This document shows, piece after piece, positions 45,412 through 58,753 of a stretch of DNA of 64,000 bases. Numbering within the stretch: the stretch's first letter is position 1; the number at the start of each line of letters is the position of its first letter. Made by a program: the position numbers and the translations under genes. The notes below the pieces were generated by a model. That model saw only the letters and a list, made by a program, of their open reading frames with translations. It was not told the DNA's origin and searched no databases. Source of the DNA: Cladochytrium replicatum (lineage: Eukaryota; Chytridiomycota; Chytridiomycetes; Cladochytriales; Cladochytriaceae); the NCBI GenBank assembly GCA_025526935.1, contig JAHLKD010000026.1:186001-250000 (forward strand). Reading direction: 5' to 3'.

Positions 45412-46686
45412 TTACAGCTTGTTGAAGGTGTGAACGTCGACGGACTGGACGTAGTCTTCAAAAGCTGTGATCTGGTCGGACAGATCGTCGACACCGACCT
45501 TGTCGTCCTCAACAACACAGCCAATGCGGAGCTTGCTGATACCATAACCGACGGGAACTAGCAACAACCATAAGATAGGAAAAAAAACCAGATTGTGTGA
45601 GACATACTAAGCTGGCTGGCACCCCAGACAAGACCGTCCATGGTGATGCTACGAACAGACTTCTCCATCTCCTTTAAGTCGGTCTCGTCGTCCCACGGCT
45701 TGACATCCAGCGAGATCATAGACTTGGCAACGACCTTTGGCTCTTTGAACATGAAGCAGGTCAGAAATGGAACATCACAATGCTTGCAATAAAAAAGATC
45801 GATTGATGATCCCAAAGTCAGTCAAACAGTTGTTTAGGTAGCTCAAGAAGTTTGACATCATTAACTCCACGACGCGAGAATCGCCCCGTGTGTCGCAGAC
45901 AAATGCCTGAATCATCATTCTGGGATCCAACATGCACAATTGCAAAATATTGGTCGAAGGCGGAACTTCTCCGCTCATTGCAATCCAAGAAGTTTGAAAA
46001 GAGGAGGTTGAGAGCAACGTACTGTTGGCCTTCTTTGCGTGGTATTCCTCCAAGCGCTTCTGCTTGAGCTTCTCAGCCTCCTCGTCAACCTCCTCATCTT
46101 CAGAGCCGAAAAGATCGATATCATCATCGTCTGCGGCATCTGCAGCAGGGGCAGAGGCTTCAGGACCGTATGCGGAAGCCGCCTTCTTGGCGCCAGGCAA
46201 ACTAGAACGTAATCTAAATGAGTAATAAGGACGTAAGCTTTGGGTTCTCTATCACCTCGACTTGGCCGCACCAAAAGATGCAATGTGCTTGAACCAGCGG
46301 GCGGCATGGGGATAAGTTGTAGCGTTGGGAGCCTTCTTGACGGCATCGAAGACGGCAACGTCCGCCTGTGAGGGAGTGAAGCTGAAAAGATGAACCAAAG
46401 AGGGTCAATTACACAGATCGGCAAATTGCAAGAACAAGTTGCATTGGACTGACTGGCTTTAGATCAGAATGCACAAGTGCTGTATGGCTTATAATCTGAG
46501 ATGGGGGTCTTAAGCCCACCGGTCATAAACACGGACCAATACTGTTCATCATATCTCAAATGGCCAAAATGAAGTCGGCGGAAAGTGACTATGATAGATC
46601 ACTTACCCTTCGATATATGACTTGTCCTCAAGGAAGGCGTTGAGGACGGCGAGGCCAGCATCGGTGTCAAGAGCGGTGAAACCCAT
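45412..46686 (-). CDS. EFB1: Translation elongation factor 1-beta (eEF1B-alpha, GEF for eEF1A)
   Basis: Five exons join in phase: 46686-46607, 46381-46256, 46201-46023, 45742-45608 and 45557-45412, giving 221 residues. The N-terminus is GST-like ([31 protein letters not shown]), followed by an acidic linker ([20 protein letters not shown]) and the catalytic C-terminal domain ([39 protein letters not shown]) ending VHTFNKL. It recharges eEF1A with GTP. Introns 1 (225 bp) and 3 (280 bp) are far longer than the usual ~55 bp here, and each holds a box C/D snoRNA candidate. The yeast orthologue's intron hosts snR18. Confidence 0.96.
45808..45927 (-). ncRNA. Box C/D snoRNA candidate in EF1B-beta intron 3
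   Basis: C box ATGATGA at 45918-45912 and D box CTGA at 45821-45818, set inside a perfect 7-bp terminal stem: GATCCCA (45927-45921) pairs with TGGGATC (45814-45808), 2 and 3 bases from the boxes. A C'-like ATGATGT lies inside. Size about 120 nt. I could not match either guide to a known rRNA site. The stem and box spacing are as expected for intron-encoded C/D snoRNAs. Confidence 0.7.
46458..46560 (-). ncRNA. snR18-like: U18/snR18-like box C/D snoRNA in EF1B-beta intron 1
   Basis: C box ATGATGA at 46552-46546 and D box CTGA at 46467-46464, flanked by a short stem (TTTgAGA at 46560-46554 with TCTAAA at 46463-46458). Six bases after the C box lies TTGGTCCGTGTTT (46539-46527), exactly antisense to AAACACGGACCAA, a universally conserved LSU rRNA stretch. 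It is followed at once by ATGA, one base off the D' consensus CTGA. The five-nucleotide rule selects the A in AAACA, the site I recall for U18/snR18 (yeast Am649, with Cm650 beside it). Yeast snR18 also lies in the EFB1 intron. Confidence 0.85.
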
Positions 46687-47152
46687 TGTGTAATCTGTGG
46701 TGAAGTGTAAGACGGGGCTCGTAGTGAGAGAAGTTTGTTTTGGTGAGCTGTCAAGAGTTTTCCTTTCCCTTTTTTTGGGATGTGGCACAGCCATCATTTG
46801 ACTATGTAGGGCTTAATGGAGCGACTATTTATTCAGCCAGATTGTGCCCACATACCTACCAACCATCTCTTCTTGGTAAGTGGGGAAACTTGTCGGTGAC
46901 GGTGGATGAGTGTAGTGATGAGAAACTGATAGGGACAACTGAGAACTTCAGCACAGCTGAAGTGACGTGACAGATTCATATCAGGGTGAACAATTGTTGA
47001 ACACTCATGGATGTAGTGAACCTCAACCTTTGCTGTATGAAACTTCGGAAGACTTACTGGTTTTATTTGCAGGCTCCGGAACAAGTTCTGTTTGCGTTTT
47101 AGCGTTAATCAATATACTTTTTCTTGGAACATGCGCCACCACTATTAAAGCG
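46687..47152. promoter_or_regulatory. Divergent promoter region, EF1B-beta / NPHP4
   Basis: About 466 bp between the two start codons. Short open stretches on the + strand may include a 5' exon of NPHP4, since the frame is open back to about 46967 without an ATG. No TATA box seen. Confidence 0.4.
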
Positions 47153-57693: not shown

Positions 57694-58753
57694 CTCAAGA
57701 TTGAAAGTTTGTCAACGTTTTGCTTTGCTTCTTGCCTTTGCATTATCACGGTGACACTTCAACCTTCTTGAAACACTCACAACTTGTTAAACTAAATTAA
57801 TTCTTCTTGGACTTGCCAAGCAATGGAAACTACACGGCGAGAGCCCAATCGACAACGTTTGGTTGGGTTGAGTGCCAGAAGTCTTCTTGTCTCACGGGCT
57901 CATGTGTTATATCTAAACGCCGAGCCAAAATACCAAGGTATTCTAGCCACAGTGTCGTTTACCCTTATCCCTCGATATCCAACATGGGGTATTTGCACCT
58001 CTCATTGTTCGTTCCTTTGCAGACGACGTAAATTGAACTTGGTATCGTAAGCAGTAGAGTAACCCTTGTTGCTACGATCTGCTGAGATTAAGCCTTTGTT
58101 CACAGATTTGTACTCTAGTAATAGAGGACAACTTTAATTAAGAACAATAATATGGGCGTTGGTTAAAGAATTCACTTTGCAATTTTCTTTGACAACCACA
58201 GCAACCACGTTTTTGAAAGCACGAAAATATCAATGTTTGTATGGCTTGTGCGTCAGAAAATGAGCTCAAACAGCTCCTTCATCAGTAATAACTGCAACCT
58301 GCCGCTTTCACCGGTGAATGTTGAATGTGTGGGCAAATTTAACAGTCTTCTAGTGTCAATAACTTCGATGATCATGATCTTGCCAACTTTGCTATTTCTC
58401 CAAAAGAAAACAACACCGTAACATCAAGACCTACTTGAGATGATTGACAACTTCTCGGAGACATGTCTGAAGGTGGAAAAGTAGTTGGTGCAGGTAAGCA
58501 AAGAAGCAATACCTTGTCGCTTGCATTGCTATCACCGCTCACCGGCGGTGGAACTACAACCCTATCTTCTTTAACCAAATGGCTCCCACAAAATGATCGA
58601 TGATCCTGTTGAGCACTGTCTCTTATTCCGCTTCATCTTTCTGTTTCCAGAGAGGGCCATGCATACTTTATACTTTGCAACTGTAATGAATCTTTGCGAG
58701 ACTGTCTATTTTCTTAACCGATTGAAGAACAAACGGGGTTTATGGATGCAAAT
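57694..58753 (+). other. Possible small multi-exon gene, unresolved
   Basis: ATG 57823 opens METTRREPNRQRLVGLSARS and continues to AEPKYQ just before a possible GTATTC donor. Further + strand coding-like pieces follow: NFDDHDLANFAISPKENN near 58360-58420, and an uninterrupted 48-codon ATG frame at 58460-58603 (MSEGGKVVGAGKQRSNTLSL ... WLPQNDR, TGA). I could not join them with normal introns; the pairs found are 32 bp or break phase. No family recognised. If real, the gene would be divergent from RABL2 with 129 bp between starts. Confidence 0.3.

Follow-up and report, generated by a model that had tools for sequence, protein, structure and literature searches.

A candidate U18-type box C/D snoRNA in the first EF1B-beta intron of a zoosporic fungus, at the intron position of the yeast snR18 host gene

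In Saccharomyces cerevisiae, the box C/D RNA snR18 (U18) is produced from the intron of EFB1 (TEF5) (PMC4330371, PMC3938493, PMC2705663), and snR18 of Candida albicans, a member of the same guide family, is likewise hosted in the EFB1 intron (PMC2926782). Beyond these two yeasts, no U18 in an EF1B gene was found in the literature searched, as far as the available parts of those reports extend; the likeliest source, the Fungal snoRNAome survey (Canzler 2018), lies outside that search. Intronic U18 is also described for Neurospora crassa, where two copies are named CD46A and CD46B (PMC2780460), and for Fusarium graminearum (PMC9606315). Animal U18 (SNORD18) belongs to the same guide family and addresses the same LSU rRNA site (PMC2653536, PMC3511168), but resides in a different host gene, and its Rfam consensus has CUGA as box D' in contrast to the AUGA of the element described here. 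In chicken, U18 is located in introns 2, 5, and 6 of RPL4, whereas introns 3 and 4 of EEF1B2 carry a U51-type RNA and ACA41 (PMC2653536), which represents a vertebrate without the linkage of EF1B and U18. The family itself has been counted among the guides traceable to the last eukaryotic ancestor (PMC3511168). Long-lasting associations of a host intron with its snoRNA have been reported for snR59 in RPL7 and snR191 in NOG2, which are retained in most fungi surveyed and concern other genes and other guides (PMC8476143); the terms snR18 and EFB1 are absent from the main text of that study.

The window analyzed here, a stretch of 64,000 nucleotides, contains on its minus strand an EF1B-beta gene (45412..46686) with five coding exons at 46686-46607, 46381-46256, 46201-46023, 45742-45608, and 45557-45412 (stop codon included). 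Its product of 221 residues matches the Pfam domains EF1_GNE (115.1 bits) and EF-1_beta_acid (47.3 bits) as well as EF1-beta chains in the PDB, and the Pfam assignment identifies the gene as a counterpart of the yeast EFB1 host of snR18. The organism is apparently a flagellated (zoosporic) fungus, as judged from the joint presence in the assembly of a radial-spoke protein gene (PF04712, best stretch 165 bits), 22 stretches matching chitin synthase (PF01644), and an EF3-type 4HB domain (42.7 bits), and the description of its source as a deep-branching fungus in the initial annotation thus appears reasonable. The first intron of the gene (46382..46606, minus strand) extends over 225 bp, the length annotated initially, from GTAAGT to CAG and interrupts codon Gly27 in phase 2. 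The preceding 80-nt exon 1 ends with ..ACAAGTCATATATCGAAGG and exon 2 begins with C TTC ACT CCC TCA, together encoding DKSYIEG / FTPSQAD. Exon 1 of yeast EFB1 is taken to be 80 nt long as well. The primers printed for deletion of the yeast intron place the end of exon 1 at ..ACAAGTCATACATTGAAGG (the reverse complement of CCTTCAATGTATGACTTGT) and the start of exon 2 at TACTGCTGTTTCTCAAGCTGA (PMC2705663). Yeast accordingly encodes DKSYIEG and then TAVSQAD, and its intron falls behind the first two bases (GG) of the Gly codon. Both introns therefore interrupt the same codon in the same phase, after GG in the Gly of DKSYIEG.

The candidate snoRNA occupies positions 46460..46557 (minus strand) within this intron, as supported by the Rfam model RF00093 and by its conservation in a second EF1B gene on contig C10. 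It consists of a box C (AUGAUGA, 46546..46552), a 13-nt guide (UUGGUCCGUGUUU, 46527..46539), a box D' (AUGA, 46523..46526) directly preceded by a U, and a box D (CUGA, 46464..46467), all on the minus strand; the element lies 54 nt inside the 5' splice site and 82 nt ahead of the 3' one. Box C of the C10 copy reads GUGAUGA, and both variants are compatible with the RUGAUGA form, while guide, D', and D are identical in the two copies. The C and D boxes and the D'-like ATGA directly behind the antisense element, all proposed initially, are thus indeed present. The proposed short closing stem stands in a qualified form: as judged by eye, a 5' arm at 46554..46558 pairs with a 3' arm at 46459..46463 (both minus strand), yet this pairing is weak in the window copy (A-U, G-C, A-U, a mismatched G x A, U-A, and a further outer U-A, hence five pairs and one mismatch), and the folding energy of either copy lies at the level of shuffled sequences (z of 0.01 in the window and -0.03 in C10). 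The C10 copy lacks the outer U-A pair by eye, but shows five pairs without any mismatch (A-U, G-C, G.U, G-C, G-C). From the window to C10, one U-A pair is replaced by G-C through a double change, one A-U pair becomes G.U by a single change, and the mismatch becomes G-C, so that the changes include compensating ones and mostly preserve pairing. No clear match to the C' box of yeast U18 (AUGAGUGA) was recognizable by eye between D' and D in either copy, an apparent difference from the yeast counterpart. As a separate observation, a six-pair hairpin GRUGGG..CCCAUC with the loop CUUAAGACC, identical in both copies, may be drawn by eye in the segment between D' and D (46468-46522, minus strand).

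The guide is complementary in 13 of 13 positions to the sequence AAACACGGACCAA in the LSU rDNA of the same genome, where this match is found in five stretches (L019, L021, L024, L025, and L027); the exact LSU antisense claimed in the initial annotation therefore holds against the organism's own rRNA genes. The antisense segment to LSU ..AAACACGGACC.. is placed directly 5' of box D', as is characteristic of U18. Across the 50.5 Mb of the genome, 10 exact copies of the 13-mer are present, twice in the EF1B elements and eight times in what appear by eye to be LSU surroundings, six of the latter within stretches recognized by the Rfam LSU model (C110, C49, C19, C116, C41, and C122) and two in stretches below its cut-off (C5 and C53). 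No better U18 candidate was found among these 10 copies. In dinucleotide-shuffled versions of the intron, some 13-nt complement to rRNA appeared in 567 of 20,000 cases (2.8%), but such a complement followed within 1 nt downstream by NTGA appeared in only 31 of 20,000 (0.16%), both values referring to a set of 8,145 distinct rRNA 13-mers that includes spacer beside the rRNA and from which most of the LSU 3' half is missing. The guide match taken alone is thus modest evidence, while its combination with D' is a stronger argument. That an ordinary intron should carry fortuitous boxes and an rRNA complement may appear conceivable from the frequency of the complement alone and from a scan of viral contigs with TTGGTCCGTGTTTNTGA, which returned three records containing the 17-nt guide-plus-D' pattern without a box C or snoRNA-like surroundings as judged by eye. 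The rarity of complement plus D' in the shuffles and an Rfam E value of 6.1e-4 across all families argue against such a coincidence, the sharp-edged constraint between the paralogues described below speaks strongly against it, and we regard its probability as practically negligible. A scan of viral contigs with a eukaryotic LSU stretch and a scan of genome contigs with the pattern TGATGAN{3,20}TGGTCCGTGTTTNTGA returned no records.

Additional pairing between the snoRNA and the LSU rRNA adjoining the guide was considered and dropped because shuffled sequences do equally well. For LSU sequence upstream of the target, 125 of 500 shuffles equaled the pairing of the window copy and 321 of 500 that of the C10 copy; for sequence downstream of it, the respective numbers were 73 and 60 of 500. 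The conserved stretch before box D showed no convincing target in LSU, SSU, or 5.8S pieces, with the best matches being rich in G.U pairs; the LSU 3' half was represented in these target searches by pieces only.

Among the Rfam families, SNORD18 (RF00093) is the top match of both copies, with scores of 32.7 bits in the window (E = 6.1e-4 for 1.2 kb searched with 4227 families) and 32.4 bits in C10. These scores remain below the gathering cut-off of 41, which is a database inclusion rule rather than a biological trait, and this explains why SNORD18 is absent from a scan of the window at gathering thresholds. The check with the Rfam U18 model suggested initially has thus yielded the expected family as best match in both copies, but not a score above the cut-off, and we accordingly use the name U18-type without implying Rfam-level membership. 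RF00093 gave no match when run directly against the complete genome, a result of little weight since it gave none in the 14 control genomes either (0/14). The assignment to the U18 type made in the initial annotation is nevertheless supported if the Rfam match is viewed together with the yeast-like guide, target, and D' sequence AUGA at 46526-46523 (PMC5389607) and with the constrained second copy.

A search of the genome with the whole element returned two matches only, one in intron 1 of each of two EF1B genes. The gene on C10 shares the exon pattern of the window gene, and 212 of 221 residues of the products are identical. Between the two U18-type elements, 8 of 98 sites differ, compared to 54 of the 99 sites that could be aligned without gaps in the remainder of intron 1, where 16 gapped sites were excluded (Fisher 7e-13), and to 29 of 100 four-fold codon sites of the two genes (Fisher 2e-4). 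The conservation between the copies starts and stops at the element. These values also bear on the possibility that both copies are decayed or inactive descendants of a former U18 guide, which might be suspected from the Rfam score below the cut-off, the imperfect terminal stem, and, by eye, the lack of a clear C' box. Boxes C and D, the guide, and D' are intact in both copies, however, the constraint is strong relative to both intron flanks and four-fold sites, and none of the 10 exact 13-mer copies in the genome offers a better U18 candidate, all of which renders decay very improbable.

Two further conserved non-coding blocks accompany the U18-type element at both loci. The arrangement differs from that of S. 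cerevisiae EFB1 in having two host genes, four EF1B introns, and additional snoRNA-like elements. Block one (46908-47006, plus strand, opposite to EF1B) is an snR64-type C/D element conserved at the C10 locus, with 5 of 99 sites differing compared to 37 of 64 in the flanks. Its Rfam scores for snR64 are 23.9 and 22.7 bits in the two copies (cut-off 38), and its GAGTGT/ACACTC stem folds with a z value of -1.71, equaled by 9 of 200 shuffles. The block lies between a GTAAGT at 46876 and a CAG ending at 47072, an interval that may be an intron in the 5' UTR of the divergent neighbor gene. The region targeted by snR64 is present in one diverged copy (L028) among the LSU 3'-half pieces recovered. 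Block two (45808-45927, minus strand) is a C/D snoRNA-like element in EF1B intron 3, where 7 of 120 sites differ between the copies compared to 41 of 105 in the flanks, and where an unchanged GATCCCA/TGGGATC stem is accompanied by a box C (AUGAUGA) and a box D (CUGA). Its segment AGGCAUUUGUCUGC agrees in 13 of 14 letters with the guide and D region of Rfam SNORD15, while the match to the entire model is weak (9.4 bits with a cut-off of 75, E of 4.9) and absent from the wider scan. Yeast snR13 is the clan counterpart of U15 (PMC3511168) and uses a D'-side guide (PMC5389607), and block two may represent a U15/snR13-type RNA.

The three blocks together also bear on the origin of the similarity between the two loci. 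Recent gene conversion, instead of selection on an RNA, might be considered for paralogues residing in one genome, but converted stretches would not be expected to break off at the borders of three distinct snoRNA-shaped elements. Given adjoining sequences that are 39-58% different (54/99, 41/105, and 37/64) and four-fold codon sites differing at 29 of 100 positions, we consider such an origin highly improbable, even more so than decay. The EF1B region is duplicated on C26 and C10 (L002 and L023), and a short piece of the divergent upstream neighbor is also similar by eye; the duplication therefore seems to span more than the gene.

A comparison with S. cerevisiae shows that the host gene, the codon and phase of the intron, the target of the guide, and the D' sequence AUGA are shared (PMC4330371, PMC3938493, PMC2705663, PMC5389607). 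Two points made in the initial annotation, that budding yeast snR18 lies in the EFB1 intron and that it guides the same site, are borne out by the yeast literature, the former by its reported location (PMC4330371, PMC3938493) and the latter by the agreement of guide, target, and D' with yeast U18 (PMC5389607). The identical intron position suggests, as far as sequence comparison can tell, that host gene and guide RNA remained linked during a large part of fungal evolution. Our preferred reading, to which we assign a probability of roughly 0.88, is that a U18-type C/D snoRNA is made from the spliced and debranched EF1B intron 1 and that host intron and guide descend jointly from an ancestor shared with budding yeast.

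A genuine U18 guide might also have entered the EF1B intron independently here and in the yeasts, given the tendency of snoRNAs to relocate into introns of genes with broad expression. Such mobility and the occurrence of unrelated snoRNAs in equivalent introns have been reported (PMC3511168), and the chicken genes, with U18 in RPL4 introns and other snoRNAs in introns 3 and 4 of EEF1B2, fit this view (PMC2653536). An independent entry would have to account for the same family arriving in the same phase-2 intron at the same codon and for a D' of the yeast type (AUGA) rather than the CUGA of the Rfam consensus, and we therefore judge it unlikely, although less so than decay or conversion. The candidate extends an arrangement known from yeasts to a zoosporic fungus in which the intron position matches. 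With common inheritance, the guide would have kept its place in one and the same intron in lineages as far apart as a flagellated fungus and budding yeast, which would make the link of host and guide about as old as the fungi and place it alongside RPL7/snR59 and NOG2/snR191 (PMC8476143). Otherwise, snoRNAs are frequently described as mobile among introns, and one broad comparison concluded that the oldest of them were not ancestrally intronic in eukaryotes (PMC3511168). The presence of the U18 guide may help explain why the EF1B intron survived in intron-poor yeasts.

A more far-reaching version, which we put forward tentatively and with somewhat less than even confidence, holds that the EF1B intron and U18 were joined before the split between zoosporic fungi and the yeast line and never parted on those lines, and that EF1B was an ancestral multi-snoRNA locus with a U18-type RNA in intron 1, a U15/snR13-type RNA in intron 3, and an snR64-type RNA in the facing intron of the divergent neighbor. 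In such a locus, guides for LSU methylation and an elongation factor would share one promoter region.

By analogy to yeast, splicing and debranching of EF1B intron 1, followed by trimming, would yield the C/D RNA. A dependence on debranching is known from F. graminearum, where the intronic U18 and four other intronic snoRNAs decrease upon deletion of the debranching-enzyme gene (PMC9606315). The D'-side guide would then pair with AAACACGGACCAA, a conserved segment of the LSU rRNA, and thereby place the fibrillarin/Nop1 methyltransferase on the A located five nucleotides from D', which corresponds to A649 of yeast 25S rRNA. The predicted 2'-O-methylation site is thus the A (or C) of 25S AAACACGG; transcription, processing, and methylation, like the continuous linkage by descent, are what we infer from the features described above. 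The neighboring C (C650) is perhaps methylated as well. For yeast U18, a D' consensus of AUGA with UAUGA as possible five-letter box and methylation of two adjacent nucleotides have been reported (PMC5389607), and the window copy shares the U-AUGA, which makes the C adjacent to the A a possible further target. However, the second methylation in yeast additionally requires the inserted base of the C' box (AUGAGUGA) (PMC5389607), for which no equivalent was found in the element, and the second site is therefore a guess.

Several minor observations concern rRNA-related sequences of the same genome. A fragment of the LSU rRNA 3' end (51.5 bits) is located in the window at 58013-58106 (plus strand) and recurs at five other genomic places with 95-99% identity over all or part of its length, either as a piece of rDNA that has dispersed or as a repeat derived from rRNA. 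Two contigs, C116 (L025, 1-130) and C41 (L026, 1-120), start with telomere-like repeats, mostly of the 10-letter unit TAACTAACCC as judged by eye, which directly adjoin truncated LSU rDNA. Partial or diverged LSU rDNA copies are found inside contigs in L019, L021, and L028, and in L028 other sequence is joined to the LSU stretch around CTTAAGGTAGCC.
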